Positions 1 through 17,354 of a stretch of DNA of 22,072 nt are shown here, piece by piece. Position numbers and translations under genes: made by a program. Location of the stretch: the IMG/VR virus record IMGVR_UViG_3300034082_001924, positions 1 to 22,072 of that record; one strand, given 5' to 3'. This DNA is from a virus. Under the pieces are notes generated by a model that worked only from the letters and a program-made list of their open reading frames with translations, searched no databases and had not been told where the DNA came from. Position 1 is the stretch's first letter; every line of letters begins with the position of its first letter.

Positions 1-771
1 CCGACTAATACTGTAACACCTACTAATACACCTACTAACACACCAACTAATACTCCGACTAATACTGTAACACCTACTAATACTCCGACCAACACACCTA
101 CACCAACCAATACACCAACACCAACTGTAAACTGTTCATTTGGTATTAGCATTGTTGTGTTAGCACCAACTCCAACACCTACGACAACTAATACAGTAAC
201 TCCAACCAACACACCTACTAACACACCTACTAACACACCTACTAACACACCAACAAATACGGTAACACCTACTAATACACCTACTAACACACCAACCAAC
301 ACACCAACTAATACTCCGACCAATACACCAACACCAACAAATACTCCGACCAATACTCCAACTAATACTCCAACCAATACTTCGACTAATACACCAACTC
401 CGACCAACACACCTACACCAACCAATACACCAACACCAACTGTAAACTGTTCATTTGGTATTAGCATTGTTGTGTTAGGACCAACCCCAACCCCAACTGC
501 GACTAATACTGCAACGCCAACCAACACACCAACTAATACACCAACTAATACCCCAACTAATACTCCGACTAATACTGTAACACCTACTAATACTCCGACC
601 AACACACCAACTAATACTCCGACTAATACTGTAACACCTACTAATACACCTACTAACACACCAACTAATACTCCGACTAATACTGTAACACCAACTAATA
701 CTCCGACCAACACCCCAACTAACACAGCAACACCAACTAAAACACCAACGGGAACGCCTACACCAACTCCA
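1..771 (+). repeat. Coding tandem repeats (PTNT units) in the fibre gene
   Basis: Hexanucleotide units coding Pro-Thr and Asn-Thr alternate across the region. A higher-order unit of 54 bases (18 codons, [18 protein letters not shown]) recurs in the block from about 570 to 720. A larger arrangement repeats with a period of 315 bases: the segment coding [12 protein letters not shown] begins at 127 and again at 442. Synonymous codons differ between units (CCA, CCT, CCG; ACT, ACA, ACC), so the array has some age, yet the near-identical blocks suggest continuing expansion and contraction. Such a Thr-rich stretch would be extended and could be glycosylated; that is inference. Confidence 0.9.
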
Positions 772-1836: not shown

Positions 1837-1858
1837 AATACAAAATAAAAAATATAGA

Positions 1859-1866
1859 TATTTATA
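1859..1866 (+). promoter_or_regulatory. Candidate late-promoter motif TATTTATA
   Basis: TATTTATA lies in GATATTTATAATAAAAG, 24 bases before the ATG at 1891. Similar sites precede the genes at 2669, 3255, 6641 and 17355. The T4 late promoter is TATAAATA, the reverse complement of this motif, so orientation and function are not settled. Confidence 0.45.
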
Positions 1867-1890
1867 ATAAAAGAAATAAAAATTTAAAAA

Positions 1891-2586
1891 ATGCCAGGAT
1901 ATTTCCCGACTTCCCAAGTTAGTGTACAATTAACAGGGACATCATCAGTACCAAATAATTTTACAGTTGAAATCTATAAATGGGATGTTGCAACTGATGC
2001 TGCGGTTTATGATAGAACAATTGTTACAGGTTTAACGAGAACCACAACTTCATCAGTAAATAGTGGATCATTAGTGGTATCACCTTATTATGGAATTACA
2101 GGTATAACAGGTTTAGATAATTATGTTAAATTAACAAGTACTACCTCATGTAGTACAACTGCAACACAAGATATTACAACCGCAGCATTAACGGTTTATC
2201 AACCAAGTAGTGGTACATTAACTGAAAATTATGCTAGTTCAATTAATTATGATAGCTTTGCCCAAAATGGAAGTTATTTAGCTTCAGGTAATCACCAAAT
2301 GGCAACTATTGACACATTGTCTTATATAACCGCATCTGATTTTGAATTAGTCTATATTAGTGGAACATATACATCAGGAGGCGCTACGGTTACAGGAACA
2401 TATGCTAATGGACCATTCAGTAGTTTTTCAGTAACTAAAACAGGTAAATCATTTTCATTATTTGGTGCAGCTAACACATCTTTATTGGCCGATAATAATA
2501 AAATTCATGGTATCGTTAGGTTAACATATACACCATCTGGAGAACATGTTGATTTCAATTACTATTATAATCCAGTAACTATATAA
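1891..2586 (+). CDS. Putative virion (tail/baseplate-associated) protein, 231 aa
   Basis: I do not recognise the family. The protein is rich in Ser, Thr, Gly and Tyr, has few charged residues and no signal peptide or membrane segment, and alternates short hydrophobic and polar stretches as all-beta phage structural proteins do. It starts with MPGYFPTSQ after an A-rich leader with no Shine-Dalgarno sequence, typical of Bacteroidota genes. It lies between the fibre gene and further structural genes and has its own upstream TATTTATA motif, so late expression is likely. The composition matches the C-terminal part of the fibre protein just upstream, so it may be a fibre tip, adaptor or decoration protein. 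Structural role is an inference from position and composition. Confidence 0.6.
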   Translation: MPGYFPTSQVSVQLTGTSSVPNNFTVEIYKWDVATDAAVYDRTIVTGLTRTTTSSVNSGSLVVSPYYGITGITGLDNYVKLTSTTSCSTTATQDITTAALTVYQPSSGTLTENYASSINYDSFAQNGSYLASGNHQMATIDTLSYITASDFELVYISGTYTSGGATVTGTYANGPFSSFSVTKTGKSFSLFGAANTSLLADNNKIHGIVRLTYTPSGEHVDFNYYYNPVTI

Positions 2587-2644
2587 TTAAAACCCCTTTA
2601 TTTACATTAAATTAATCTTTACATTACCTAAAACCTAATAAAGA

Positions 2645-2652
2645 TATTTATA
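2645..2652 (+). promoter_or_regulatory. Candidate late-promoter motif TATTTATA
   Basis: TATTTATA in AAGATATTTATAGG, 16 bases before the ATG at 2669, in the 82-base gap after the previous gene. No other structure or terminator hairpin was seen in that gap. Confidence 0.45.
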
Positions 2653-2668
2653 GGTGTAAATAATTTAT

Positions 2669-3229
2669 ATGTCAGATTTATTTGGAAGTATGTCTTTTTA
2701 TGTTCCGTCTTACCCAAAAGATGGAGAAGTCCAATCTGGTATTACACAAAACTATTTAAACGATTATGAATATAATCCAGCAACGGGATATACGTCATTT
2801 TCATATATTGGTATTGGAACAAGTAGATTGTCCGAATTAAAAAAATACGGAACAACCGGATATACACAAAATTTACTCTATAGTTCAAAAACTGAAAATA
2901 ACGTATCTATTGATTTCACTGGATATACTTTTACATATTCAGGAAAAACAGGAACTACCACAACATTACAATATTACGATAGGTCAGATGGATACACTGA
3001 AATTGCAGGAAATACAACTGGATTTACCAAGGAAGAAGTTTTTGAACAGGTATTAACAAGAAATGAACATTTCTTGGGGTTTGTGGAACAACCAACCGTT
3101 TATTCGGACATTTTTGTGGAACGAGGTAAATTGGGCGTTATGGAAAGGAACTTCAGATTAAGTGAAATTGACAGTATGGGTGAATTGAGTATATATGGAA
3201 ATGGGTATTTTAAAGTTAGAAAACAATAA
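2669..3229 (+). CDS. Putative tail/baseplate structural protein, 186 aa
   Basis: Family not named with confidence. The first 120 residues are Tyr-, Thr- and Gly-rich and likely beta. The C-terminal 45 residues are more compact and charged, around DIFVERGKLGVMERNFRLSE and then the ending GNGYFKVRKQ. From memory, similar endings (a VERGK...ERxxRLxE core followed by GNGYF) occur in structural proteins encoded near baseplate genes of other T4-like phages; this was not checked. No transmembrane segment is visible. The gene stands alone between two copies of the late motif, so it may be its own transcription unit or part of a nested late series with the next gene. The ATG at 2669 is the natural start, 16 bases after the motif. 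Confidence 0.6.
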   Translation: MSDLFGSMSFYVPSYPKDGEVQSGITQNYLNDYEYNPATGYTSFSYIGIGTSRLSELKKYGTTGYTQNLLYSSKTENNVSIDFTGYTFTYSGKTGTTTTLQYYDRSDGYTEIAGNTTGFTKEEVFEQVLTRNEHFLGFVEQPTVYSDIFVERGKLGVMERNFRLSEIDSMGELSIYGNGYFKVRKQ

Positions 3230-3235
3230 GATTTA

Positions 3236-3243
3236 TATTTATT
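3236..3243 (+). promoter_or_regulatory. Candidate late-promoter motif, one-base variant TATTTATT
   Basis: The context ATATTTATTAATAAAAGAAA closely matches ATATTTATAATAAAAGAAA ahead of the 1891 gene, with one inserted base. The ATG at 3255 follows 11 bases later. Confidence 0.4.
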
Positions 3244-3254
3244 AATAAAAGAAA

Positions 3255-4163
3255 ATGGCAGTAGGATCATATGGTATTGTAAGACCCGCAGATGTATCAC
3301 CAGCAGACGTAGATATATTTTATCATTACGTTTCAGATAGAACTGCGAACGTTACACCAACATTAACAAAATTAGATTCCACAGCAATATTAACACCAGT
3401 GTTTCATAATGAAACGACAGGTGGTGTTGCAAATAAAGAAATTTTAGGTGGTTTATATAATCTGAAATTACAAGCCGGTCAATTCTCTGAATTAGGAATT
3501 TACACATTACATTTACGTCCTAAACAAGTTAGAACTACAATTATGGATTGTGGAGTTTTGGCTTCACTTCCATCGGTTAGAGGGTTGGTTATTGACATTG
3601 GTAATGTACCGGTTGATGACCAAGGTAAGTTTACACCACAGGGATTAGTTGGATATAGAATTGAATATATTAATAAGACCAATTACCAAAAAGTTCCAAA
3701 CTTTTATAGATTGGTAACTTCATCTTTTTATTGTGTACCAACTACCGCAAATTTATCAAACTCAACAGATAAGGCGATAAGGTATCAATATACCGATTCA
3801 TCATCTAACTTTATATTTTTAACAGTAACACCAAGTTCATCACCATCAAGTAGACCAAATGTGGTTCCATTTATTGGTGAACCAGGTCAAAGTATTATTT
3901 TAACAAATACATTCTTCAACCCAACAACGGTTGAAATTGAAATGGTTGAACATGATGCATCAACATTGGCACACGCTCTTTACGGTGACCAAACTAAGGC
4001 AATTGCTCCAGGTATTTACACTATCTACGATAAGGATAAGAATATCTATAAACAATACAATCTTTATGAAATTAAAGACCAATTTAATGAGACATTATAT
4101 GAAGTTCGTGAAGAAAGAACAAGCGTTGATGAAACCTTAAATTTAGATAACATAACAGGATAA
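3255..4163 (+). CDS. Putative tail/baseplate protein, 302 aa
   Basis: Not a family I can name. The N-terminus reads MAVGSYGIVRPADVSPADVD and is followed by a mixed alpha/beta segment with ILGGLYNLKLQAGQFSELGI and IYTLHLRPKQVRTTI, then a Ser/Pro-rich loop (SSSPSSRP, about residue 200) and a C-terminal part with EVEMVEHDAST-like residues and YDKDKNIYKQYNLYEIKDQ. The protein is soluble, without membrane segments. Its stop codon overlaps the start of the next gene by one base (TAATG), so the two are almost certainly translated together, which points to the same baseplate subassembly. The ATG at 3255 lies directly after an A-rich leader. Structural role is inferred from context. Confidence 0.65.
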   Translation: MAVGSYGIVRPADVSPADVDIFYHYVSDRTANVTPTLTKLDSTAILTPVFHNETTGGVANKEILGGLYNLKLQAGQFSELGIYTLHLRPKQVRTTIMDCGVLASLPSVRGLVIDIGNVPVDDQGKFTPQGLVGYRIEYINKTNYQKVPNFYRLVTSSFYCVPTTANLSNSTDKAIRYQYTDSSSNFIFLTVTPSSSPSSRPNVVPFIGEPGQSIILTNTFFNPTTVEIEMVEHDASTLAHALYGDQTKAIAPGIYTIYDKDKNIYKQYNLYEIKDQFNETLYEVREERTSVDETLNLDNITG

Positions 4164-6619
4164 TGGCTAAAGTAAGATATAAAGTTCCAAGTGAAGCTGC
4201 TAGTGGTGTAGAAACATTTAGTGATAAATTAGTCGGCACACAGATTACTGATGGTACTAGTCAACTGACTAATACGAACTTTGATATTAATAGAGTCATT
4301 CCTGAAAAAGACAGTAAGGATTTTAAATCACAACCTTTTTCTGATTTCTTAACATTAAAAGATTTAAAGGAAGAATTAAGCGCTGCAACCACACAAAACG
4401 GTAGAGCAAAGAAAAAAGAAAAAATTAAATTTAAAGGTGGAATTAATGATGCTGGTAAATCTTTATATGGTTCATTAAAACAAAGATTAGAAGCGTCAAT
4501 ATCAAATATTATTACAAATTTTCCTGCGGCAATACTAGTTGATAAAGATAGTCCCATTAAAAGTGTTGACGTCACATTATCAGGAATAACATATAGTGAA
4601 AGCGCAAAGACAACTGATTTTTATATTCAAAAATCAATTTTATTTAATCCGTTTGATATTACACTTATTAAACCATTAAGTAATACTTTACCAACAACTG
4701 ATAACACAATAAGAAATTTTTATTCTTCATATACAAAATATGTTTTAGTTTATAATAATCTAACATATGATATTGTTTCATATACCGAACCTAACGCATT
4801 AAATTTAATTAAATTAAAAGTTAAAGGAAAACCATTCACAGGTTCAACAATAAACGATAGTGTTTTAATAAGACCAAATGATGGAATTACCGAAGAATTT
4901 TTTAGTGGGTTAGATGAATTAGAAACTCTTTTATTAAATAGAGAAACCAATCCAAAATATCAAGCAAGTTTTAAAGTACCGAAAGATAGTTTAGACGAAA
5001 CTAAAACTGAAATCGTTAATGTATATGTTAATTGGCCAACAACTAAAGATAATTGGAATTTACAAATAGTTGGCATTGATTATGCTGATTACATTAGTCA
5101 ATTAAGTAGTTTAGGTGATGAGATTGATGATTACAAATCTAATTTAATTGTAAGATTTTTAACTGCACCACAATTATTTGAGTTTGACACGGATGACCAA
5201 AAGGCACAATCAATATTTCAATTATATGGTCAGTCATTTGATAGAGTAAAAAAATATATAGATAATATTGCTTACGTACGTAATGTAAGTTATGATGGAA
5301 TAAATAATATTCCCGATGTGTTATTGAAAAATCTTTCACAAACATTAGGACTAACAACCACAAATCTATTTGATGAAAAAACATTAGAGGATACATTATA
5401 CACTAGACAAAATAGTGTATTTGATGGTTTATTAGTTGGTAAGACATTAATAGAGGCAGAGTATGAATTTTATAGAAGATTATTAGTTAATCTTACTCAT
5501 CTTTATAAATCTAAAGGAACTAGAGTATCTATAGAATTTTTCTTAAAATTTTTAGGTGCACCTGAACCAATGATTAAAATTGACGAACATGTATATAATG
5601 TAACAAAATTACCAAACAACCCTGATTTAGAAACCGATTTATATGATGTAATTCAAGGAACAAAAGTTGATACTTTAGTAACAGGAACAACCGCAGTTAC
5701 AGGAAGTATTTTTACATATTATAGTGGAGGAACAACAGGATTAACAAGTGGATATACGTTTGCAACTGGTTCAGTTACAAGTTCATCAACATTAAGTAGA
5801 GATGAATATCCAATTGACGAAAATGGATTACCAAGAAAAACAACAAATTTATCTTCGGACATATTTTTTCAAAAAGGTTCAGGATGGAATGATTTAACTT
5901 TAGATCATAGGTCTAGTACAATTATTGATACGGATTTATCTAGTGGATCATTTGTTAATGGAGTTTTTCAATTAACAGGTAGAACTAAAACCATTAAAAC
6001 AAAATCAAAAGATTATACTTACGGAGAAGAATATTTTGATAATTTTAGAACACTACCAGGATTAGACTATGGGTTTAACATTGAAGGTTCAATTGACAAT
6101 AAAAAGGCATCCGTTGTTACTGACGATGACTCATCTAAATTAATTCTTAATAGAAAAAATATTAACATATATCTATCACCGTCACAAACTATTGATTATG
6201 ACGTCTATAGAAGATCAAGAAACAATAGTAAAACATTTGGTAATTTAACGCCACAAACTGGAAATACTTTTGATAATTTTATTAATACAGCATTAAGTCA
6301 AGTTATTACAAATTCAAACAGTATTAAATTTAGTAAATCATACAGTGGATTAACAAATGTTTTTTATGATTACACCACTAACACTGGATTCACCCCATAT
6401 AACTTCACATCGGTTAATGAGTTTATAAACAAAATGAGTCCATCATGGTTAAAAGTTGTAGAACAATTTGTTCCATCAACAACCCTATGGACAGGTGGAA
6501 ACTTAATTGGAAATAACATTTTTAATAGATCAAAATACAATTATAGAAAACCAAGATATGGAGTTTATAGTACAACACCTCATAGTGGAGATACAATTAA
6601 TTGTGAAGAAATAGAATAA
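4163..6619 (+). CDS. Large tail/baseplate protein with a P2 gpI-like segment, 818 aa
   Basis: The N-terminal third (MAKVRYKVPSEAAS onward) is charged and includes a Lys-rich stretch near residue 85. The middle, at about residues 330-480, resembles the phage tail protein I / baseplate wedge type: FLTAPQLFEFDTDDQKAQ, then GQSFDRVKKYIDNIAYVR, then YEFYRRLLVNLTHLYKSKGT and SIEFFLKFLGAPEP. An aligned helical block ending in KSKGT plus a FLxxLGxP-like turn is typical of that group. The C-terminal half is Thr/Ser/Gly-rich and beta-like and ends in CEEIE. It is translationally coupled to the 3255 gene by a one-base overlap. Position between structural genes and size fit a baseplate wedge component, possibly corresponding to T4 gp6 or gp7, but I cannot choose between them. 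Confidence 0.65.
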   Translation: MAKVRYKVPSEAASGVETFSDKLVGTQITDGTSQLTNTNFDINRVIPEKDSKDFKSQPFSDFLTLKDLKEELSAATTQNGRAKKKEKIKFKGGINDAGKSLYGSLKQRLEASISNIITNFPAAILVDKDSPIKSVDVTLSGITYSESAKTTDFYIQKSILFNPFDITLIKPLSNTLPTTDNTIRNFYSSYTKYVLVYNNLTYDIVSYTEPNALNLIKLKVKGKPFTGSTINDSVLIRPNDGITEEFFSGLDELETLLLNRETNPKYQASFKVPKDSLDETKTEIVNVYVNWPTTKDNWNLQIVGIDYADYISQLSSLGDEIDDYKSNLIVRFLTAPQLFEFDTDDQKAQSIFQLYGQSFDRVKKYIDNIAYVRNVSYDGINNIPDVLLKNLSQTLGLTTTNLFDEKTLEDTLYTRQNSVFDGLLVGKTLIEAEYEFYRRLLVNLTHLYKSKGTRVSIEFFLKFLGAPEPMIKIDEHVYNVTKLPNNPDLETDLYDVIQGTKVDTLVTGTTAVTGSIFTYYSGGTTGLTSGYTFATGSVTSSSTLSRDEYPIDENGLPRKTTNLSSDIFFQKGSGWNDLTLDHRSSTIIDTDLSSGSFVNGVFQLTGRTKTIKTKSKDYTYGEEYFDNFRTLPGLDYGFNIEGSIDNKKASVVTDDDSSKLILNRKNINIYLSPSQTIDYDVYRRSRNNSKTFGNLTPQTGNTFDNFINTALSQVITNSNSIKFSKSYSGLTNVFYDYTTNTGFTPYNFTSVNEFINKMSPSWLKVVEQFVPSTTLWTGGNLIGNNIFNRSKYNYRKPRYGVYSTTPHSGDTINCEEIE

Positions 6620-6628
6620 TAACATAAA

Positions 6629-6636
6629 TATTTATA
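6629..6636 (+). promoter_or_regulatory. Candidate late-promoter motif TATTTATA
   Basis: TATTTATA forms half of the perfect 12-base palindrome ATAAATATTTAT (6624-6635). Only four bases separate the motif from the ATG at 6641. If it sets transcription as T4 late sites do, the message would have almost no leader or start inside the gene. Confidence 0.4.
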
Positions 6637-6640
6637 ACAT

Positions 6641-8152
6641 ATGAGCTTTTTAAATACAGGATATTCAGCAACAGTTGCAGCAAGATTAACACAAAAGGGT
6701 AGAAACTCTATTGCAAAAGGTAATTTTGTAGTGAGTTACTTTGCGGTAGGAGATTCTGAATACAATTATAGCGGTGGAACATCAAGTCAGAATATATTGG
6801 CACCATTTGATAAAGATAGTCATATAAAATATCCATTGTGGTATACAAGTGGAAGTACCTTTTTTGGAATACCAGTGGATGGCTCAAATACTACAATATG
6901 TAAGAATTTAGTCACAGCAAATAGTGATTGGACATTGAGTACAGTTTGGGATAAAAATCCGATTGGATTAGTAAATACAGGTACAACTAATCCATATGTT
7001 GGGGTTAAAAATTTATTAGGTTATTCATCATCTTCAGGACAAACATATAATACAGGTACAACAATATATGACACCACAGGAACTGCGGTAACTATATCAC
7101 CTGAAGAACAAAAAGCAATTGCAATATTACATTATACACAGAGCGGAACCACTGGCGACCCTTATAGGTTCTTTAAATATGATGATTACATCTGTATCGA
7201 TAATACGACCGGTCAAACATCGTTTAATGTGACATTGACCTCAATTATGTATCACAGATTAACTGGTGCAACATCGGGAGCAACATTTACAATGGGAACC
7301 ATTGACAAAAAAATGGTATCTAATTACAACTCAAGATATGAATTACCGTATAGAGATTTAGTGGATTATACTGGTAATACGGTTGGTAAAATATTTCACA
7401 ATCAAAAACTTGTAGTATTTGATGATGAGGAAATTGTTGCCGCGTTAGATACATCATCGTCAAGATTTTATACATTAACAGCACCAAAGGTTGATGTTTT
7501 GGTCACAAATAATAACCCAATTACTGGATTAACAACAACAGGTAAAACTATGTGGGTTACGTATAAATTTAGTGGAGGTACAGTATCTGATGATTTACCT
7601 TGTAATTATTTTATGAAAGTTACAGGGTCGACAAATGATGAAAATGTTACTGTTAAATTTAGTAGTGGTGGATTTAAACATTTAAATAATGGTTATACAG
7701 CAACTCAATTTCATATATTACATCAATTAACAGATAACGGTACAAATCCCGTATCAGATGCTTGGAAGATTAGAAATTACACAGGTGATTTAAGTTCAAT
7801 AGATGATTTGAAAACAGGATTCACATTCACAATTAATCAAACCAAATTTGCGGATACAACAACATATTCATCAAGTTTGTCTTCATTTGGTGTAGATAGA
7901 GCGTTGTCTGGCGGAACAATAACAGGTACGGTTGCATTAGTAAGATCAAGTGATATTGAGGAAATGGTCTTTAAATTGAACCTACCCTCAAATACCTTTA
8001 CAACATCTCAGAACCCAACTTTTACTGGAACATCTAAAATAACTGAAGTTGCTTTATTGAACACAAACAAAGAAGTATTAGCAATGGGTAAATTAGCAAC
8101 CCCATTAACAAGAAGTGGTAATCAGGTAATTGAAGTTAAATTAGATTTCTAA
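6641..8152 (+). CDS. Putative tail/baseplate structural protein, 503 aa
   Basis: The N-terminus MSFLNTGYSATVAARLTQKG, followed by SIAKGNFVVSYFAVGDSEYN, looks like a conserved attachment domain; from memory such openings occur in large virion proteins near the baseplate of T4-like phages (not checked). The rest is Thr/Gly/Ser-rich and beta-like, with many short polar turns, and ends in LTRSGNQVIEVKLDF. No membrane or enzymatic motif is visible. It is the last gene of the structural block; a 38-base AT-rich gap follows before the resolvase gene. It has its own copy of the late motif just upstream. It could be a wedge/fibre connector or a short-fibre protein; I infer only that it is a virion component. 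Confidence 0.6.
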   Translation: MSFLNTGYSATVAARLTQKGRNSIAKGNFVVSYFAVGDSEYNYSGGTSSQNILAPFDKDSHIKYPLWYTSGSTFFGIPVDGSNTTICKNLVTANSDWTLSTVWDKNPIGLVNTGTTNPYVGVKNLLGYSSSSGQTYNTGTTIYDTTGTAVTISPEEQKAIAILHYTQSGTTGDPYRFFKYDDYICIDNTTGQTSFNVTLTSIMYHRLTGATSGATFTMGTIDKKMVSNYNSRYELPYRDLVDYTGNTVGKIFHNQKLVVFDDEEIVAALDTSSSRFYTLTAPKVDVLVTNNNPITGLTTTGKTMWVTYKFSGGTVSDDLPCNYFMKVTGSTNDENVTVKFSSGGFKHLNNGYTATQFHILHQLTDNGTNPVSDAWKIRNYTGDLSSIDDLKTGFTFTINQTKFADTTTYSSSLSSFGVDRALSGGTITGTVALVRSSDIEEMVFKLNLPSNTFTTSQNPTFTGTSKITEVALLNTNKEVLAMGKLATPLTRSGNQVIEVKLDF

Positions 8153-8190
8153 CGATTTACATTTATTTTAAATTACATTATATTAGAATT

Positions 8191-8802
8191 ATGAGTATAG
8201 ATGTAAAATTTAAGAATAAGCCAAAGATACTAGGTCTTGACATTAGCACAAAAACCATAGGGTTTGCTTTGTTTGATATTTCAGGTTCTAAATTATTGGA
8301 ACTAACACATTTTTCCCCAAAAATTAAACCACAACCTGAAGATAAGTTGGAAGAACTTATGATGAAGGCCAATACATTTCAAAGACATTTGGAAGGATAT
8401 AAAGATATGGGTATTACTCGTGTCATCATTGAGGAACCTTTATTAAACTCAAATAACGTTTATACAGTAGGGACATTATTGAGATACAACACAATGATAT
8501 GTAAATTGATTTATGATATTTTTGAGATTGTTCCAACATTCATTTCAACATATAACGCAAGAAAATATGCATTTCCTGATTTAGTGGGTCCAAATGATAA
8601 AGGACGTAATGTATTATTTGGTGGTTATCCAAAAGACATTGATAAGAAACAAGTTATTTGGGATCATGTTAATGATGTATGTCCTGATGTTCAATGGTTG
8701 TATGATAAGAATGGTAAATTGAAAAAAGAAAACTTTGATATGAGTGATGCTGCCACAGCGGTTATTGGTCACTTCAATATGATAAAACAATTGGATAAAT
8801 AA
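8191..8802 (+). CDS. RuvC-like Holliday-junction resolvase / RNase H-fold endonuclease, 203 aa
   Basis: Predicted to resolve branched DNA during phage recombination and before packaging, the job done in T4 by the unrelated endonuclease VII. Acidic residues of the RuvC/RNase H fold are in order: Asp17 in ILGLDISTKTIG, Glu81/Glu82 in RVIIEEPLL, and Asp183/Asp186 in NFDMSDAATAV, where a C-terminal helix carries the last ligand. Length fits phage RuvC-like resolvases. It lies between the structural and replication blocks. The AT-rich 38 bases upstream contain no Shine-Dalgarno sequence and no clear promoter, and downstream is the structured element at 8856-8931. The fold is well supported; junction specificity is inferred from the family and context. 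Confidence 0.82.
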   Translation: MSIDVKFKNKPKILGLDISTKTIGFALFDISGSKLLELTHFSPKIKPQPEDKLEELMMKANTFQRHLEGYKDMGITRVIIEEPLLNSNNVYTVGTLLRYNTMICKLIYDIFEIVPTFISTYNARKYAFPDLVGPNDKGRNVLFGGYPKDIDKKQVIWDHVNDVCPDVQWLYDKNGKLKKENFDMSDAATAVIGHFNMIKQLDK

Positions 8803-8807
8803 TATTT

Positions 8808-8849
8808 GGCAACTTAGATTTTATATTACGATTTAGCAATGATATATTT
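8808..8849 (+). promoter_or_regulatory. Candidate promoter region: GGCAACTTA ... TATATTT
   Basis: GGCAACTTA (8808-8816) is followed 26 bases later by TATATTTA (8843-8850), seven of eight positions matching the Bacteroidota TAnnTTTG element. The same nine-base word with a TATATTT at similar spacing occurs at 12089-12128. Both copies begin a few bases after a stop codon. It would drive the structured RNA just downstream and perhaps the primase operon. A clear TTG element at the usual distance is missing. Confidence 0.35.
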
Positions 8850-8855
8850 AATAAT

Positions 8856-8931
8856 AGGACGGGACAAGGGTTAAAAGCCTTGTTTGGTTGGTAGGAGGTC
8901 AGCGGTGGTGTGCTGGCCTCCATTTTTTTTT
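8856..8931 (+). ncRNA. GC-rich, two-hairpin transcript leader or small RNA ending in a terminator
   Basis: This patch is far richer in G and C than anything nearby. Hairpin 1 pairs ACAAGG (8864-8869) with CCTTGT (8878-8883) and can extend by G-U pairs. Hairpin 2 is the terminator stem at 8894-8921. A G-rich linker holding AGGAGGT (8893-8899) joins them. No open frame of useful length is present and it is not a tRNA. It could be a small RNA, an attenuator, or only the terminator of the upstream unit with an extra hairpin. Confidence 0.4.
8894..8931 (+). terminator. Strong intrinsic terminator between resolvase and primase genes
   Basis: A ten-base-pair stem pairs GGAGGTCAGC (8894-8903) with GCTGGCCTCC (8912-8921), with a single G-U pair and an eight-base loop. 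Nine T residues follow (8923-8931). It separates the late structural/resolvase unit from the replication operon. Confidence 0.88.
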
Positions 8932-8959
8932 ATAAGATTTTTTTGTTATAATATACAAC

Positions 8960-9901
8960 ATGAACACCCAAGAAGTAAATTATTCCGCAGTATTTGAAAT
9001 TTTGGAAGATATATTTGGTGACTATAAGAATCATAATGATTATAGATATCAAGTGTCTTTTGACTGTCCTGTGTGTTCTCATGAAATCAAAGGGTTAGAA
9101 AAAGGTGACGGTAAAGGAAACTTGGAAATCAATTACAAATATGGGGTTTATAAGTGTTGGGTGTGTGCCGAATCTCACGAAACACACGGTTCAATATATA
9201 AGTTAATTAAGAAGTTTGGTAATCCTAAACAACTTAAAAAATATATTTTATTAAAACCAGAAGAAGATGAGGATGGTAATAAAAAAGAATATAAACCAGT
9301 TAGATTACCAAAAGAATTTATTCCATTTAAAGATGCTAGTTTTGGAATGAAATTAACACCAGGATATAAGCAGGCATACAATTATATTAAAAGTAGAAAT
9401 ATAACAGATTTGATGTTACAACTTTATAATATTGGATTTTGTGCGACAGGTGTATATGAAAATAGAATCATCATTCCTTCATATGATGAAAATAGAAGAT
9501 TGAATTACTTTATTGCTCGTTCTTTTTTAAACAAAACGAAGAGAAAATATATGAACCCCGTGGTACAAAAGGAAATCATTATTTTCAATGAAAGTTTAAT
9601 TAATTGGGACGAACCTGTTTATGTAGTTGAAGGTGCGTTCGATAGTATTTTCATTCCAAACGCAATTCCAATGTTGGGAAAGTTTATGGGTGAACATTTA
9701 TTTAAAAAACTATATGATAATGCAAAAAAAATAATTATAGTACTTGACCCCGATGCGTGGAACGACCAAGAAAGATTGTATCATAGATTGAATTGTGGTA
9801 AACTAATGGGGAAAGTATGGAGTATTAAATTAGAAGGGGATAAAGACATTGCCGATTTACAAGGAAACTTAAGTGAATATAAAATGAAACAAATAGAATA
9901 A
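8960..9901 (+). CDS. DnaG-type DNA primase (zinc ribbon + TOPRIM), 313 aa
   Basis: Makes RNA primers for lagging-strand synthesis at the phage fork. The N-terminal zinc ribbon shows CPVC (Cys36, Cys39) and CWVC (Cys66, Cys69), with His residues just after. The TOPRIM domain has the catalytic Glu224 in VYVVEGAFDSIF and the metal-binding DPDAW (Asp263, Asp265) after the hydrophobic strand KKIIIVLD. At 313 residues it is about the size of T4 gp61 and lacks a helicase domain, so a separate helicase is expected elsewhere in the genome. It is the first gene of the operon running to gp46, and the next gene starts one base after its stop codon. A perfect TATAAT at 8947-8952 lies just ahead of the ATG. 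Confidence 0.85.
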   Translation: MNTQEVNYSAVFEILEDIFGDYKNHNDYRYQVSFDCPVCSHEIKGLEKGDGKGNLEINYKYGVYKCWVCAESHETHGSIYKLIKKFGNPKQLKKYILLKPEEDEDGNKKEYKPVRLPKEFIPFKDASFGMKLTPGYKQAYNYIKSRNITDLMLQLYNIGFCATGVYENRIIIPSYDENRRLNYFIARSFLNKTKRKYMNPVVQKEIIIFNESLINWDEPVYVVEGAFDSIFIPNAIPMLGKFMGEHLFKKLYDNAKKIIIVLDPDAWNDQERLYHRLNCGKLMGKVWSIKLEGDKDIADLQGNLSEYKMKQIE

Positions 9902-9902
9902 C

Positions 9903-10772
9903 ATGAATTTAAAAGACATCTCATTAGAGATAAATGACTTATTAGAAAAGAGACGACAAGAATTAGAATTAACATTCATAGAAGAAGAACACATTTACTA
10001 TATGAAAGATGTTGATGGTGAAGTCAAAAAGAACTTTCCATCTGTATCTAAAATCGTTAAGAAATTTCATAAACCATTTGATGCTGATGGTATGGCACTT
10101 AAAATGGCAAAAGGAGACCCTGAAGGACAATCACAATTACTTGCTGAATGGAAACAAGCGGGTGACCTATCAACTAATATGGGTAGTCGTGTTCACTTTG
10201 AATTGGAATCTGAATTGATTGGTCGTTTTGATAACTACAAAGAAGTTAGACAACCAATATTTGAAATTAATGAGGAACAACAACGTAAGAGTGATAACAT
10301 GATTATTGCGGGAAAACAATTTCTTGATTTAATGTTAGAACGAGGTGGGGTATTGTTAGATACTGAAATCGTATTAGGTGACCCGACAGAACAATACACA
10401 GGACAACCTGATAAAGTATGGTTGATGCAAAACAAAGAGAAAGATGGATTTGGTTTTGTTATTACAGATTGGAAGACGAATCAACCAAAAAACTTTGAGG
10501 TTCATCATTACACTGGTAGATTATATCCACCATTTAACAACTATCATGATAACGCTTTAGGTCATTATTTTTTACAACTTCCATTATATGGTAGATTACT
10601 ACGTAAGATGTTAGAAGGTACAAAATATAGTGATACTAAATTATTGGGTAATGTTGTCGTTTTATTAAAAGATGATTCAACTTTTGTAGAATATAAAGTT
10701 CCACATCAAATCAATAATGCAATCCAAACAATGGATTTATCAAAATATATTTCAAGATGGTCAAAAAAATAA
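9903..10772 (+). CDS. PD-(D/E)XK nuclease, RecB/Cas4-like, 289 aa
   Basis: Predicted metal-dependent DNA exonuclease. Visible motifs follow the RecB/Cas4 order: GSRVHFELE (His98), Glu155 in DTEIVLG, GQPDKV (Asp170), ITDWKTNQP (Asp189, Lys191), then QLPLYGR (Gln225, Tyr229), matching the QxxxY motif of that group. There is no Cys cluster, so no iron-sulphur centre of the kind found in many Cas4 and AddB proteins. The N-terminal 90 residues are helical and charged. The gene follows the primase almost directly and overlaps gp47 by 16 bases, so it probably works with the gp46/gp47 complex in end processing or host DNA breakdown. Family assignment is firm; substrate is inferred. Confidence 0.82.
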   Translation: MNLKDISLEINDLLEKRRQELELTFIEEEHIYYMKDVDGEVKKNFPSVSKIVKKFHKPFDADGMALKMAKGDPEGQSQLLAEWKQAGDLSTNMGSRVHFELESELIGRFDNYKEVRQPIFEINEEQQRKSDNMIIAGKQFLDLMLERGGVLLDTEIVLGDPTEQYTGQPDKVWLMQNKEKDGFGFVITDWKTNQPKNFEVHHYTGRLYPPFNNYHDNALGHYFLQLPLYGRLLRKMLEGTKYSDTKLLGNVVVLLKDDSTFVEYKVPHQINNAIQTMDLSKYISRWSKK

Positions 10773-11575
10773 TTCATATTGCTGATTTACATATTCGTAC
10801 AATTCAAATGCATGATTTGTATAGAGAACAATTTGAAACATTAATTGATGAGATACGAGAACATAATATCGTGTGGCATCAAGAAGGTATTCAGTATGAA
10901 GAAATTCGTATAGTTGTTGCGGGGGACATAGCGCATCAGAAAATAAATATTTCTAATGAACAGTTATTATTAACAAGTTGGTTCCTAAAAGAATTATCCA
11001 AATATGGTAAAGTTGTAATTATACCAGGTAATCACGATTTCTTGGAAAATAACACACAACGTATGGATAGTATAACACCAGTGGTTCAGTTATTAGACGA
11101 CCCAACTATTGTTTATTATAAAGATAGTGGTGATTATATGGATGATAATATTCAGTGGGTTGTTTATTCACTATACCAACATAACTCACGTCCTGAGTTT
11201 ACAAAAGATGAAAGTAAATTAACAGTTGGATTATTTCACGGACCTATTATGGGGTTATCAACTGATTTAGGATATGAGTTTGAGGATGCGTATGACCAAT
11301 TAAACTTTGTTGATTTAGATTTATTGTTATGTGGTGACATTCACAAGAGACAACAATTTACATTACCAAACGGAGGACATGCAATTATGGTTGGCAGTTT
11401 AATACAACAAAACTTTGGTGAAACAGTTAAACATCACGGGTATGGTATTTATGATGTGGAAACAAATGAATATACATTTCATGATTTGGACAACGAACAA
11501 CCGTTTCTTCATTTCTCAATAAACGATATAAAAGACATTGAAGATGGAAAAGAAACACACGTTAATCTTGGATAA
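10757..11575 (+). CDS. 47: Recombination endonuclease subunit gp47-like (SbcD/Mre11 phosphoesterase), 272 aa
   Basis: Nuclease subunit of the Mre11/Rad50-type complex that resects DNA ends for recombination-dependent replication. All core metallophosphoesterase motifs are present: IADLH (Asp10, His12), VVAGDIAH (Asp57), IPGNHDF (Asn92, His93, Asp94), LFHGP (His161) and LCGDIHK (Asp194, His196). At 272 residues it is shorter than T4 gp47 (339), so the C-terminal capping and Rad50-binding part is reduced. The start overlaps the upstream nuclease gene and the end overlaps the next gene. Its partner gp46 is not adjacent: a repeat protein, a membrane protein and a restriction-modification pair lie between them. 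Confidence 0.88.
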   Translation: MVKKIIHIADLHIRTIQMHDLYREQFETLIDEIREHNIVWHQEGIQYEEIRIVVAGDIAHQKINISNEQLLLTSWFLKELSKYGKVVIIPGNHDFLENNTQRMDSITPVVQLLDDPTIVYYKDSGDYMDDNIQWVVYSLYQHNSRPEFTKDESKLTVGLFHGPIMGLSTDLGYEFEDAYDQLNFVDLDLLLCGDIHKRQQFTLPNGGHAIMVGSLIQQNFGETVKHHGYGIYDVETNEYTFHDLDNEQPFLHFSINDIKDIEDGKETHVNLG

Positions 11576-12083
11576 GGAGTTCATACAATTTTGTGAATTA
11601 AATAACATAACAGATATTGAGAAACAAGCAGAAGAAACCTTCAATAGAGGGTTTTCTTTATTAAAATATGGTGAGATACCAAATGGTAATAAAATTAGAG
11701 AAATTGTTGAAGTAACTAAAGAAATAATCAAAGAAGTTATTGTTGAAAAAATAGTTGAACGTATTGTTGAAGTTCCCGTTGAAGTCATTAGGGAAGTCAT
11801 TAAAGAAATAACAATAGAGGTACCTGTGGAGGTCATTAAAGAGGTCGTTGTTGAAAAGAAAGGTAAGAGTAAAACCGTAACTAAAGAGGTGATTAAAGAG
11901 GTTCCGGTTGAGAAAATTGTGGAAGTTATTAGGGAGGTAGTTAACAATGATGAGATAGATAGGTTAATGAAAGAGAATGAAAAACTTAAGACAGATTTAA
12001 ATAATATTACAAATTCACTATCCAAATTAGGTAAGGGTAGATTAATGAAGAATAGTAATATGAATTCATTATACGACGAATAA
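11544..12083 (+). CDS. Val-Glu/Lys-Glu repeat coiled-coil protein of unknown function, about 179 aa
   Basis: I chose the ATG at 11544 (MEKKHTLILDKEF); an in-frame TTG at 11538 is the only earlier option. The gene overlaps the end of gp47 by about 32 bases. After a 50-residue N-terminal region, residues 55-130 are a degenerate repeat built from EVIKEV, VEVPVEVI and VEKIVE units, strongly amphipathic and highly charged. A second helical part (DRLMKENEKLKTDLNNITN) looks like a regular coiled coil. Such Val-Glu-Pro repeats are seen in many phage and bacterial proteins without a common function. Being inside the recombination operon it might tether or space protein complexes; that is speculation. 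No membrane segment. Confidence 0.7.
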   Translation: MEKKHTLILDKEFIQFCELNNITDIEKQAEETFNRGFSLLKYGEIPNGNKIREIVEVTKEIIKEVIVEKIVERIVEVPVEVIREVIKEITIEVPVEVIKEVVVEKKGKSKTVTKEVIKEVPVEKIVEVIREVVNNDEIDRLMKENEKLKTDLNNITNSLSKLGKGRLMKNSNMNSLYDE

Positions 12084-12088
12084 TTTCC

Positions 12089-12128
12089 GGCAACTTACTT
12101 TTTTTTACGGAATCTTTTCTCTATATTT
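12089..12128 (+). promoter_or_regulatory. Candidate promoter region: GGCAACTTA ... TATATTT
   Basis: GGCAACTTA (12089-12097) lies five bases after the stop codon of the repeat-protein gene and is followed 24 bases later by TATATTTT (12122-12129). The arrangement matches that at 8808-8849. A short stem TTCCG/CGGAA (12085-12089 with 12107-12111) brackets the conserved word and a T8 run. It would start a transcript for the membrane protein, the restriction-modification pair and gp46. Confidence 0.35.
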
Positions 12129-12142
12129 TTAATATTAAATTA

Positions 12143-12448
12143 ATGATTATGATGAATTTTATTATGTGGTTGTTCATTTCTTACGGGGTATCAAACATTA
12201 TGGTTTTCGGTAGTATATTCAACACACCAAGAGAATGGATTACAAGAAAATCAGAATGGTTTGGAAAACTGGTGAATTGTATGATGTGTCTACCCTTTTA
12301 TGTTGGCATTTTTATGTCACTAGTACTTGGTAGTTTGACAAATAAATTTTTTCCATGTCCTTGGTATATGTGTTTATTTTTTGATGCCGTATTAACCAGC
12401 GGATTAGTCTACTCGTTTAATGTCTTGATTGAAAAATTAGAAAAATAA
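12143..12448 (+). CDS. Small membrane protein, DUF1360-like, 101 aa
   Basis: Three likely membrane segments: about residues 5-25 (MWLFISYGVSNIMVFGSIF), 49-65 (around LPFYVGIFMSLVLG) and 76-96 (MCLFFDAVLTSGLVYSFN). A Cys-x-x-Cys pair, NCMMCLPFYVG, precedes the second segment and resembles the CxxC-x-F/W-x-G signature of DUF1360 proteins, which are common in phages and bacteria and of unknown function. Several ATG codons are possible (12143, 12149, 12152); the first is given. Base composition looks like the operon's resident genes, not like the AT-richer restriction-modification pair. Its stop overlaps the start of the endonuclease gene by one base (TAATG), so it reads directly into the restriction cassette. 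Confidence 0.7.
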   Translation: MIMMNFIMWLFISYGVSNIMVFGSIFNTPREWITRKSEWFGKLVNCMMCLPFYVGIFMSLVLGSLTNKFFPCPWYMCLFFDAVLTSGLVYSFNVLIEKLEK

Positions 12449-13152
12449 TGACACAATCTAATATATTAAGAGAAAGTGTTAATCAACACACAGTAAAAAA
12501 TAACGAATCAAAATTACAAGATGAAAATATTTTAGAAATTTCATATCAAATACACGAAGAAATGAAATTATTATATCCTAATTATCATTTTGGAGTTGAT
12601 GTTAATTTTCCAATTACCAATTTAAGAGATATGGTTTATTCAGATGTTGAAGTTAACGATAAAAGTTATTTTAAACCTGATGGTGGATTATTATGGGTTT
12701 TAATAAAAAATAAAAAATATAATTATTTATTTCCTGAACAAAAAAGACAAGGAACTAACGATAAAAGATTAATTGAGGGTAAAGATAAACAACCACAAGG
12801 TAATGCAAGTGAAAGAATTGCGGATAAATTATGTATTGCTAGAATACTTTTTGGTGATGAAGATATATTTCCTTTTGTGACGTTTTTTCAAGGGTGTGAT
12901 TTCTATGAACCAGAATCAACAATACCTGATAGAATAAAAAGAACTTTTAATTTTATCGAACCTAATATTATACATTATGAATGGATAAAATTACAAAAAA
13001 ATAATAATGTAGGAGGTAGTTATTTTATGAGAGGACACTCAATGAACGAAGCCCCTGGATCAAGTGATTGGACAAAAATTGAAATGTATAGTGTAATGAA
13101 AAAAATAGCTATTTATAGTATACAATATTATATAAGAAAATATGGAAAATAA
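12448..13152 (+). CDS. EcoRI-family type II restriction endonuclease, 234 aa
   Basis: Predicted to cut double-stranded DNA at a short palindrome. Residues 74-80 (YFKPDGG) and 96-102 (PEQKRQG) match the EcoRI sequences KPDGG and EAKHQG and supply the catalytic Asp78, Glu97 and Lys99; the Asp-Glu spacing is 19, against 20 in EcoRI. Next come GNASER (118-123), equivalent to EcoRI GNAIER, whose Asn, Glu and Arg contact bases, and FPFVTFFQGCDF (141-152), matching EcoRI FPYVLFLEGSNF. At 234 residues it is shorter than EcoRI (277), mainly at the termini. The gene follows the membrane-protein gene by a one-base overlap and overlaps the methylase gene by 11 bases. There is no sign of a frameshift or active-site decay. 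EcoRI-family enzymes recognise AATT-centred sites, so GAATTC or a relative is likely; the outer bases cannot be read from sequence. Confidence 0.88.
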   Translation: MTQSNILRESVNQHTVKNNESKLQDENILEISYQIHEEMKLLYPNYHFGVDVNFPITNLRDMVYSDVEVNDKSYFKPDGGLLWVLIKNKKYNYLFPEQKRQGTNDKRLIEGKDKQPQGNASERIADKLCIARILFGDEDIFPFVTFFQGCDFYEPESTIPDRIKRTFNFIEPNIIHYEWIKLQKNNNVGGSYFMRGHSMNEAPGSSDWTKIEMYSVMKKIAIYSIQYYIRKYGK

Positions 13153-14242
13153 AGATTATTTAAATAAACAATTAATTACTTATTTAGGTAATAAAAGAAA
13201 TTTAATTGATTTTATTGATACTGTGGTAACAATAGTAAAAACGGAATTAAATAAAGATAAACTTAAAATACTTGATGGGTTTTCAGGGTCGGGAGCGGTT
13301 GCTCGTTATTTTAAACAACATTCGTCTATGTTAATTACTAATGATTTTGAAAATTATTCTAAAATTATTAATGAATCATTTTTGTTAAATAAATCATCTA
13401 TAGATGAAAGTGAAATTTTAAAATACGTTAAATTATTAAATGAAAAAAAGTATAGAACAGATTTAGGTGAAGGTATAATTGAAAAATTATATGCTCCTAA
13501 AAATACTAAAAATCCACAAATAGATGAAAGATGTTTCTATACTAATGAGAACGCAAAAATAATTGATAATATAAGAAGAACAATTGATTTAGAAGTTCCA
13601 GATTACTTAAGGGATATTTTTATATCTATTTTACTTTTTAAAGCTTCAGTTCATACAAATACTTCTGGAGTATTTAAAGGTTTTTATAAAGGACTTAAAT
13701 CTCCAATAGGTAAGTTTGGTGGGGAAAAAGAAAACGCATTAGAAAGAATCATGGGAGAAATAAAAATGGAATCAATACTATTAAGTAATTATGATTCTAA
13801 TTGTTTTACTTTTCAAAAAGATACCAATAGATTAGTTGAAGTATTAGATGAAATGGATTTAATTTATTATGACCCACCGTATAACCAACATCCATATGGA
13901 TCTAATTATCATATTCTTAATACTTTAGTTGATTATGTGGAACCAAAAGAATTATCAAAAGTATCTGGAATACCAAAAAAATGGAGTAAATCTAAATATA
14001 ATAAGAGGACATTAGCAATTAACGCGTTAAGTGATTTAATAAAAAAAACAAATTCTAAATATATTATGATATCTTATAACAATGAAGGATTTATAAGTTA
14101 CGATGAAATTATAAAAATTTGTGAGGAAAAAGGTGAAGTAAAAGTGTTCGATGAAAATTATCCAGCATACAGAGCAAGTAGAAATTTAAAAGATAGAAAA
14201 ATAAATGTTACTGAATATATTTTCTTAATTAAAACTTATTAA
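13142..14242 (+). CDS. DNA adenine-N6 methyltransferase (D12/alpha class), partner of the EcoRI-like enzyme, 366 aa
   Basis: Predicted to transfer a methyl group from S-adenosylmethionine to adenine in the endonuclease target, protecting phage DNA. Motif order is that of the alpha class: motif X-like LITYLGNKRNLIDF near residue 11, motif I ILDGFSGSGAVARYF near 43 with the FxGxG signature, a long variable region probably carrying target recognition, and catalytic motif IV DPPY near 244. The late position of DPPY and the roughly 190-residue insert mean it is not a minimal Dam. Its stop overlaps gp46 by one base. Like the endonuclease gene it is very AT-rich; sampled lines run about 13-25% GC. 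Pairing with the upstream endonuclease is inferred from overlap and shared composition. Confidence 0.88.
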   Translation: MENKDYLNKQLITYLGNKRNLIDFIDTVVTIVKTELNKDKLKILDGFSGSGAVARYFKQHSSMLITNDFENYSKIINESFLLNKSSIDESEILKYVKLLNEKKYRTDLGEGIIEKLYAPKNTKNPQIDERCFYTNENAKIIDNIRRTIDLEVPDYLRDIFISILLFKASVHTNTSGVFKGFYKGLKSPIGKFGGEKENALERIMGEIKMESILLSNYDSNCFTFQKDTNRLVEVLDEMDLIYYDPPYNQHPYGSNYHILNTLVDYVEPKELSKVSGIPKKWSKSKYNKRTLAINALSDLIKKTNSKYIMISYNNEGFISYDEIIKICEEKGEVKVFDENYPAYRASRNLKDRKINVTEYIFLIKTY

Positions 14243-16575
14243 TGGTTCCATTTATAAAAGTAACGTGGGAAGATGTCCCCGAAAATTTCACTCCTGAGAA
14301 AATCAGAAGGGTAAAATCTTATTTTGAGAAAAAATATAACGCAAAGACGGTTCAAGTAATTACTAAAACATTAACTAGTGTTAATCAAACACGATTAGAA
14401 TCGTTAGAGGCCTCAGATAATATCTTAGATCATCAGTACCAAAAGAAACTAATGAAAGATTTCATTAAGGATAATGAAATCGACATTAAATGGGAATTGG
14501 TTGATAGATTAGATAATAAAGTTAATGTTCAAATAGATAAATTAAATGAAAACAAAGTTAGATATAATAAATGGTATATTAGGAAAGTGGAGTTTTCTAA
14601 TTTTCTATCATTCGGAGATAATAACGTTATTGATTTTACTGGCTTGGACGGTATTACGGTAATTGAATCCACACCTAAGAACTTCGGTGGTAAATCTACA
14701 TCTTCAGTAGACCTTTTAATGTTCTTATTCTTCAACACAACAACAAAGACAAAAACTAATGGAGAAATCTTTAATAGATTTACCGATAAGAATGATGTGA
14801 GTGTTCGTGGTGAAATTACCATTGATGGGGATGATTATGTGATTGAAAGAAAGACATCTCGTAAGATGGGTAAGTCTGGTGAATATACCGTTAAAAACGA
14901 ATTAGAGTTTTATAAAAAAACTGAAGATGGGGAAATTGTAAATTTATCTGGTGAACAAAGAAGAGAAACGGAAGCATTTATATCTTCAGCAATTGGAACA
15001 GAAGAAGATTTCTTATCGACCATATTAACAACTGGTTATAATTTAGAAGAACTGATTGAATCCAAACCAACCGCTCGTGGACAAATCTTAACAAAGTTCA
15101 TGGGATTAGAAAATTTAAAAATTAAAGAAGAACTTGCAAAAGAAATTTATAATGATTGGGGTAAGAAATTAGTATCCAACACATATAACAAAATTAGTTT
15201 AGAATCTGATAATGAAACGTACAAAGAAAGTATTATCAATTCAGAAAGTGAGATTGTAAAATTAACAAAAGAATTAGGTAAGTTTGAAAAGGATTTAGAC
15301 AAGTTAGAAAAGAAAAGGGACGATGTATTCTTAAAAAGAAATAATGACGTTGATAAAGAATTACTGAACACAAACCCAACTTTATTACAAAGAGAAGTTA
15401 CTTTTTTATTAACTCAAAAAAATGTAAGTCAAACAAATGCCGACGGAGTTAGTGTTGTTGAACCATCACAATTCTATGATGAAGACCAACACAAAGAGTT
15501 AAAAGGTGAAATGGCGAACCTTCAAGGAATTGATGTTGTATCCAAATATGAAAAGACCCAAAGAGAAAAATTAATCAAACAATTTGAAGAAGGAACAGTT
15601 TGCCCTACTTGTAATCGTGCGTTAGATGAGGTTGACCACACAGATGAAATTGAAAAGATTAAAAAAGAAATTGAAGATATCATTAAAGAGATGGAATTAA
15701 ATCAAACTCAATTTGATTTATTAAAAGAACAATCGGAAGGGTTTGATAAATTAAAAACTGAATTTGAATCTTACGAAAGAAACAAACTTCGTAAGGAAAG
15801 ATATCAATTAGAGATTGAACAAAAACAATTGGAGATTGATAGTAAACAAAAAAGATTAGATAATTACGAAAGTAATAAAAAGAAACTTGAGGATAACCAA
15901 AAGATTGATGCTGAAGTGATAGCACTTAAAACTAAAATTGAAACAGCAAACGGAGACATTAGACAGACAAACACTAACATTGAAAAACACACCAATAACA
16001 TTTCAAATATGAATGGTAAGGTCGGTATCAATGAGGAGTTAATTAAAAAGATTACGGCGGAGGAAGAGTTAGCTGCGGTGTTTAAAATATATTTAACGGT
16101 ATACGGTAAGAATGGTATATCTAAAATTATCCTTAAAAATATGATTCCATTAATCAATCAGGAATTATATCGTTTGTTGGTGGATAGTTGTCATTTCATT
16201 TTAGAGATGAATATAAATGATAAGAACGAGGTTGAATTTATTATGATAGATACAGAGACCCGAATCGTTAAACCTTTAAACGCGGGGTCTGGTTATGAAA
16301 GAACCATATCCTCATTGGCACTTCGTAGTGTATTAACTAAAATATCATCGTTACCCAAACCTAACATCGTAGTTATGGACGAGGTGTTCGGTAAGATTGC
16401 TGACGAGAACTTGGAAATGGTTGGTGAGTTCTTTAAAAAGATTAAAAATTATTTTGACCATATACTTGTCATATCACATAATTCTTTAATACGTAATTGG
16501 TCTGATAATATCGTTATGATTAAGAAAGAAGAAAATGTTTCATCCATAGATTTTATCACAACAAAAATTTCTTAG
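14242..16575 (+). CDS. 46: Recombination endonuclease subunit gp46-like (SbcC/Rad50 ATPase), 777 aa, with N-terminal extension
   Basis: ATPase partner of gp47 in DNA-end resection. The ATPase begins with IRKVEFSNFLSFGD at residue 113. The P-loop is NFGGKST (147-153), lacking the usual first Gly of GxxxxGK. Coiled coils flank the zinc hook VCPTCNRA (Cys454, Cys457). The signature-like SGYERTISSLALRS (near 682-695) and Walker B NIVVMDEVFG (near 708-717) follow, then the His-switch strand HILVISH. Ahead of the ATPase are about 112 extra residues (MVPFIKVTWEDVPENFTPEK onward) not found in typical Rad50 or T4 gp46, which start at the ATPase. T4 gp46 is 560 residues, so this protein is also longer in the coils. 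The start overlaps the methylase stop by one base. Confidence 0.87.
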   Translation: MVPFIKVTWEDVPENFTPEKIRRVKSYFEKKYNAKTVQVITKTLTSVNQTRLESLEASDNILDHQYQKKLMKDFIKDNEIDIKWELVDRLDNKVNVQIDKLNENKVRYNKWYIRKVEFSNFLSFGDNNVIDFTGLDGITVIESTPKNFGGKSTSSVDLLMFLFFNTTTKTKTNGEIFNRFTDKNDVSVRGEITIDGDDYVIERKTSRKMGKSGEYTVKNELEFYKKTEDGEIVNLSGEQRRETEAFISSAIGTEEDFLSTILTTGYNLEELIESKPTARGQILTKFMGLENLKIKEELAKEIYNDWGKKLVSNTYNKISLESDNETYKESIINSESEIVKLTKELGKFEKDLDKLEKKRDDVFLKRNNDVDKELLNTNPTLLQREVTFLLTQKNVSQTNADGVSVVEPSQFYDEDQHKELKGEMANLQGIDVVSKYEKTQREKLIKQFEEGTVCPTCNRALDEVDHTDEIEKIKKEIEDIIKEMELNQTQFDLLKEQSEGFDKLKTEFESYERNKLRKERYQLEIEQKQLEIDSKQKRLDNYESNKKKLEDNQKIDAEVIALKTKIETANGDIRQTNTNIEKHTNNISNMNGKVGINEELIKKITAEEELAAVFKIYLTVYGKNGISKIILKNMIPLINQELYRLLVDSCHFILEMNINDKNEVEFIMIDTETRIVKPLNAGSGYERTISSLALRSVLTKISSLPKPNIVVMDEVFGKIADENLEMVGEFFKKIKNYFDHILVISHNSLIRNWSDNIVMIKKEENVSSIDFITTKIS

Positions 16576-16591
16576 TTTCAAATATCTTAAT

Positions 16592-16599
16592 TATATTTG
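16592..16599 (+). promoter_or_regulatory. Candidate Bacteroidota-type promoter element TATATTTG
   Basis: A perfect match to the TAnnTTTG -7 element, 23 bases before the clpP ATG, in the 47-base gap after gp46. The -33 position carries TTTC (16568-16571) instead of TTTG at an acceptable spacing of 20 bases. Confidence 0.5.
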
Positions 16600-16622
16600 T
16601 CCTATAAACTAAATTTACTTTT

Positions 16623-17300: not shown

Positions 17301-17302
17301 GT

Positions 17303-17325: not shown

Positions 17326-17330
17326 CTTCA

Positions 17331-17338: not shown

Positions 17339-17354
17339 ATAAAACATAGAATAG

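Follow-up and report, generated by a model that had tools for sequence, protein, structure and literature searches.

The gap between the genes for a RuvC-like resolvase and a DNA primase in the virus record analysed here holds a two-hairpin element which, judged from its conservation in related phages, represents a new phage family of structured RNAs. Since its shape and its loops are kept while the letters of its stems are rewritten, the element very likely works as a small RNA. On balance we think that it is a stand-alone small RNA gene of about 75 nt belonging to one phage clade. A small RNA had been one of the candidates in the original prediction made from the window, and it is now supported by covariation in both hairpins, by an invariant loop and by a promoter-like module. 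The carriers form a group of phages known from uncultured sources, which probably infect Bacteroidota; the host phylum is inferred from the likeness of the primase to that of a Flavobacterium phage and from the base composition.

The RNA element and its neighbours

The window, i.e. the whole stretch of DNA that was analysed, is a 22,072-base virus record, and ten of its proteins were put through a family scan. Its main genes are on the + strand, and large proteins without a family match precede the RuvC-like gene. The window also encodes an exonuclease, SbcD-like, SbcC-like and head-maturation-protease-like proteins, and a sigma factor. The features in and around the element are collected in Table 1. 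Elsewhere, the ORF at 157-1836 has long PTNTPTNT repeats and codes for a low-complexity fibre-like protein, and a G-run/C-run hairpin with terminator-like tails on both strands is found at 17303-17325, between the head-protease-like gene and the ORF that begins at 17355.

Table 1. Features of the RNA element and its surroundings (positions in the window)
Feature	Position	Strand	Evidence
Conserved RNA element	8856-8931	+	covariance model match, 75.6 bits
Hairpin 1: base GAC/GUU, G x G mismatch, GGACAAGG/CCUUGUUU, loop GUUAAAAG	8858-8889	+	fold, covariation
Linker GGUA, unpaired; GGU belongs to conserved UUGGU	8890-8893	+	fold
Hairpin 2, terminator stem: 11 pairs, loop GUGGUG	8894-8921	+	fold, terminator scan, covariation
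UGGUG of loop 2, invariant	8906-8910	+	49/49 distinct sequences
T9 tract, expected RNA 3' end	8923-8931	+	sequence, terminator scan
RuvC-like resolvase, upstream neighbour	8191-8802	+	phrog_159, E 3.2e-06
DNA primase, downstream neighbour	8960-9901	+	phrog_47, E 1.8e-38
GGCAACT box, upstream promoter-like element, 35 nt before TATATT box	8808-8814	+	conserved spacing
TATATT, -10-like box just 5' of RNA	8843-8848	+	9/12 match (TTTATA N17 TATATT), alignments
TTTTTTTGTTATAAT, second promoter-like stretch, 7 nt before primase ATG	8938-8952	+	sequence, alignments

A stretch of 106 nt around the element folds with an energy of -35.6 kcal/mol (z = -4.46), which none of 200 dinucleotide shuffles matched. 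Hairpin 2 has the features of an intrinsic terminator: seven of its 11 pairs are G-C and in the window a single A separates it from the T9 tract. The element ranked first among 14 terminator-like sites in window positions 1-20000, where 6.2 were expected. The two-hairpin element first predicted is thus real, with some revision of its parts. Hairpin 1, described as ACAAGG/CCTTGT, is present and is longer than that; the terminator stem, given as ten pairs, has 11 both in the fold and in the terminator scan; and the AGGAGGT that was placed partly in this stem does lie there, almost wholly, in the 5' arm.

Relatives and distribution

Homologues of the RuvC-like protein were searched for in IMG/VR, and the best 80 of 276 candidate loci were used. 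In most of these 80 the gap between RuvC and primase holds the same element with different stem letters. Alignment A1, made of 41 sequences (the window and 40 loci), gave the covariance model R1. The covariance search in related phages which had been suggested as a check found the element in 73 of the best 80 of 276 loci and in the window (E <= 3.6e-06), the misses being L069, L070, L075, L077, L079, L080 and L081. The 41 sequences behind R1 match it by construction; outside this training set eight distinct sequences (L021, L083, L087, L091, L102, L119, L122 and L123) score 63.6 to 91.7 bits. A pattern scan blind to the neighbouring genes (GACGGGACN{12,24}GTTTRGTTGGT) led to 56 loci, 51 of which match R1, all of them adjoining RuvC and/or primase; the remaining five (L089, L105, L111, L126 and L133) have neither an R1 match nor these genes beside them. 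Among 28 whole records 22 carry exactly one strong R1 match (E <= 5.1e-7) and six carry none; one of these six, G022, is the source of the chance match L089.

A midpoint-rooted RuvC tree was made from the 45 distinct proteins of the best 80 of 276 loci. In this tree all occurrences of the RNA fall within a single well-supported group; 38 of its 42 rows have the RNA and four do not, and one gain plus two losses (3 changes) suffice to explain its presence. Among cultured phages the best-ranked primase belongs to Flavobacterium phage immuto, with 34.5% identity. Searching immuto with R1 gave no convincing element; its one weak match (26.2 bits, E 0.002) looks by eye like a plain terminator-like hairpin after the tail completion gene and was rejected.

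Rfam release 15 gave no match at the gathering cut-off in the window, where the best chance matches reached 10-16 bits against family cut-offs of 45-105, and no match at E <= 1 in the loci of nine relatives. No DNA match turned up among 50,697 phage records, the searches brought up no cultured phage of this clade, and no published account of this RNA was found as judged by titles and the beginnings of abstracts. The pattern was also searched for in a genome collection described as covering 84,980 species, to look for bacterial copies: of the nine loci obtained none had an R1 match at E <= 0.1 (the best being L143, E 0.79), which leaves the absence of the element from bacteria unproven because the pattern fits just 32 of the 49 known members.

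Conservation and covariation

Many loci are near-copies of one another, and counts were therefore taken over 49 distinct sequences (alignment A2). In A2, which was fitted to the R1 structure and is biased towards it, 96.3% of 975 pair cells are paired and both-sided changes occur at 15 of 20 pairs. The covariation score of A2 is 0.704, compared to 0.188 (sd 0.013) for shuffled alignments and at most 0.256 for slid versions. RNAalifold applied to the unfitted A1 found the same two hairpins, with both-sided changes at 15 of 18 pairs.

One check named in the original prediction was whether hairpin 1 is conserved in relatives, and this is what we find, the main helix being paired in 98.6% of cells with both-sided changes at three of its six pairs. 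The letters at its base are conserved (GACGGGAC/GUUURGUU, including G.U pairs and a G x R mismatch) and the upper stem is variable. In 26 of the 49 sequences its loop reads UAGNRAU, a GNRA type, and in the group of the window it is UUAAAA-like. Three of the pairs at the base of hairpin 1 are G.U in 45 sequences; on the other strand they would become C x A, so the working molecule is the RNA of the + strand.

The most conserved part of the element is the terminator loop, in which the invariant UGGUG has a mean unpaired probability of 0.94 (lowest 0.03) over the 49 sequences. On the linker side GUUGG is kept in 46 of the 49, and its GG has a mean unpaired probability of 0.87. When eight phage records were scanned for terminator-like hairpins, 101 sites came up, some counted on both strands, and eight of them are this element. 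UGGUG is found in the loop of none of the 93 others, GAAA being their commonest loop (14 cases), and a second hairpin at most 45 nt upstream is found for eight of the 93.

Promoter-like sequences

As a class, sigma-70-like matches are not above chance in the window (91, against 116 in shuffles). The GGCA box is located 45-50 nt 5' of the RNA in 39 of the 49 distinct sequences, ten having no box, and in 38 of the 39 a TATA box follows exactly 35 nt past it. For 21 of these 39 boxes there is overlap with the final RuvC codons (GGC AAC TAA), so the conservation of the box may be partly coding. In the other 18, the window included, it lies beyond the RuvC stop: 0-7 nt beyond in 15, and at 93, 830 and 833 nt in L044, L123 and L062, where other DNA intervenes. 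The intervening DNA of the L062 subgroup (L062:3598-4430) is coding-like, and its start, read by eye from the letters, resembles a UDP-sugar dehydrogenase.

Sites of the form CGGCAA-N28..31-TATAWT number 15 in eight records. Sorted by hand, six belong to this RNA, five are intergenic and four are inside genes; the automatic labels were seven intergenic and eight coding, with four of the RNA's own sites included in the latter. The five other intergenic sites (in G001, G004, G007 and G010) are 47-65 nt before gene starts, and at all five the spacing from box to TATA is 33 versus 35 at the RNA. The window has such a module, CCGGCAACT + TATATTTT, at 12087-12129 (box at 12089, TATATT at 12122, spacing 33), upstream of the ORF 12143-12448. 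Seven loci of the pattern scan contain a second site of this promoter-like kind 3.3-4.2 kb from the first, and the diverged loci L072, L074 and L076 have a different promoter-like stretch, TCGTATATTTTGAA after a T run. We also considered whether CAACU of the GGCAACT box pairs with AGUUG of the linker, and dropped the idea since genes that have no such linker are preceded by the box too.

The distance from the end of the RNA to the primase ATG is 25-48 nt in all 49 sequences. The primase seems to have its own promoter directly 5' of its ATG, going by the second promoter-like stretch; in record G001 similar stretches precede an ATG at five other places.

How the RNA may work

As a stand-alone gene the element would be transcribed from a phage-type promoter made up of the GGCAACT and TATATT boxes, with a start at or just before 8856 and a stop at the T9 tract around 8931. 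The product would be a two-hairpin RNA of about 75 nt, and the terminator hairpin would be the small RNA's own 3' end. That it has its own promoter is suggested by the conserved spacing and by the likeness to the other sites, bearing in mind the overlap with RuvC codons in 21 of 39 sequences. The RNA may act in trans through its exposed G/U-rich letters, namely the UUGGU running into the linker and the UGGUG in loop 2, which could pair with C/A-rich host RNA or bind a protein, and hairpin 1 might provide stability or a protein site.

Phage gene starts in eight records have no general excess of sites for the linker or the loop. Duplex energies of -9 or lower were obtained with the loop in 25 of 1048 start windows versus 42 internal windows, and with the linker in seven of 1048 versus 35. 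In the k-mer scan the loop pattern included linker letters in four of the eight records (G018, G025, G010 and G027), and the sole notable excess with the right letters was in G001, with 6-mers in 9 of 209 starts against a control averaging 3.9, with its 95% point at 9. The duplex-energy scan was also evaluated with orthologue ranks, using the right letters in all eight records. The best loop group, at 0.197 against a 5% permutation limit of 0.137, is not significant; the best linker group, at 0.101 against 0.122, is below its limit but is confounded by its position in a coding start that is itself conserved. Among the loop groups the sigma factor ranks best, and it has ACACCAC just before its ATG in the window (18492-18498) and in G001, and lacks it in the other six listed orthologues. 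The ACACCAC ahead of this sigma factor ATG (window 18492-18501) could pair with loop 2.

Alternative explanations

The RNA is never found away from the primase, so that a role in cis fits too, and the main rival is a cis-acting leader for protein-dependent antitermination, which we consider rather unlikely. It proposes that a phage or host factor loads at hairpin 1 of an RNA begun at the upstream promoter, and that the loaded factor decides whether the polymerase passes through hairpin 2 into the primase operon; the factor could be a NusG paralogue as in the LoaP system, or the RNA could do this alone as in HK022 put. A hairpin followed by a terminator is also the order in the LoaP-controlled dfn leader (PMC12691694), and the constant position of the element before the primase is as expected. 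The phages moreover encode a NusG-like protein (PF02357, E 1.4e-09) about 17-21 kb downstream; in G001 it is L152 (G001:C1:114052-114582, reverse strand), with an NGN domain and a KOW match just below the cut-off. The NusG domain was found in 18 of 34 records, and most of the 16 absences say little because many contigs, being short, may not reach its place. Record G014, which has lost the RNA, is also without the NusG-like gene, with the genes flanking the NusG place present: four large RNA-bearing records (G001, G007, G018 and G025) have 38 genes in common, 36 of which are found in G014, and the NusG-like gene is one of the two that are missing. This gave NusG the look of a partner. At variance with it, G029 (the contig of L077) has lost the RNA and retained the NusG gene, and in the outgroup record G019 the gene is present without the RNA; we treat the connection between NusG and the RNA as a lead. 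Antitermination is further opposed by the apparent promoter of the primase itself, by the single strong copy per record, and by the terminator loop being the most conserved part, which antitermination does not obviously need. A classical attenuator, an attenuator having been among the original suggestions, is not supported: with pairing of at least 80% required at each column pair, no conserved alternative helix of more than 5 pairs competes, and those touching hairpin 2 have 4 pairs only.

The strong terminator formed by hairpin 2 could make the element an elaborate but ordinary intrinsic terminator of RuvC or late transcripts, hairpin 1 merely shielding the 3' end. The loci L069, L070 and L075, which are without the RNA, do keep a plain terminator-like stretch before the primase as seen by eye. 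We nevertheless regard this explanation as improbable in view of the loop that is missing from 93 other terminator-like hairpins, the conserved letters at the base of hairpin 1, and the promoter-like module that stays with the element where other DNA separates it from RuvC. A replication origin or primer transcript, in which the G-rich RNA forms an R-loop or a primer beside the primase gene, would account for the adjoining primase, the G-rich letters and the promoter-like module upstream. The extremes of cumulative GC skew are off the element in eight records, some of them fragments, the nearest one, at the end of record G027, being 10 kb distant, and an end in a U-tailed terminator is atypical of a primer; this explanation is very improbable. 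Scarcely credible is the decoy for the anti-Shine-Dalgarno end of 16S rRNA, which had been proposed from the AGGAGGT at 8893-8899. Of the 49 distinct sequences five contain AGGAGG and 13 have GGAGG at any place, and in the window the motif is inside a stem; it is not kept because stem 2 varies freely, e.g. to TCCCTCGG/CCGGGGGA.

A bolder proposal, which must be called a long shot, takes one of two forms. Either the element would belong to a switch in which a phage NusG-type protein opens the replication operon of Bacteroidota phages by antitermination, with the RNA as loading site and hairpin 2 as gate, or it would act in trans, its two UGGU motifs gripping C/A-rich host RNA, e.g. the ACCA ends of tRNA, and so shift the host to phage growth.

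Comparison with known systems

RNA regulation in Bacteroidota phages is little known, and a review of phage sRNAs (PMC12197685) uses neither "Bacteroid" nor "Flavobacter" as a word in its main text. A heavily covarying small RNA fixed before the primase would be a handle on phage replication timing, and the model R1 can find this RNA in metagenomes. The element would also be an example of a terminator loop conserved for a purpose beyond termination.

Most Bacteroidota have no Hfq. Lambda PreS (~88 nt) and VP882 VpdS (~50 nt) are short phage RNA genes, as we propose for this element, and they differ from it in depending on Hfq; PreS acts on the host replication gene dnaN (PMC12197685). PreS and VpdS are not known to be related to our RNA by sequence, and the comparison with Rfam gave no match. 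The sRNAs of the GcvB type share with it the G/U-rich unpaired letters between and in hairpins. Such regions of GcvB-type sRNAs could meet C/A-rich targets, and GcvB is longer and enterobacterial. The RNA described here has no Rfam match, and no target for it was found in the phage gene starts.

The two stem-loops of HK022 put RNA are made from a phage promoter and are followed by genes and distant terminators, whereas the second stem-loop of our RNA is the terminator itself. The likeness to the LoaP-controlled dfn leader consists of a small hairpin upstream of an intrinsic terminator (PMC12691694), together with the NusG-like protein in these phages. The dfn hairpin has a UNCG loop and is part of a 417-nt leader (PMC12691694), whereas the loops of hairpin 1 are of the GNRA or UUAAAA type and in the window 4 nt separate the two hairpins. 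In contrast to the LoaP system, the presence of the RNA and that of NusG are not tightly matched.
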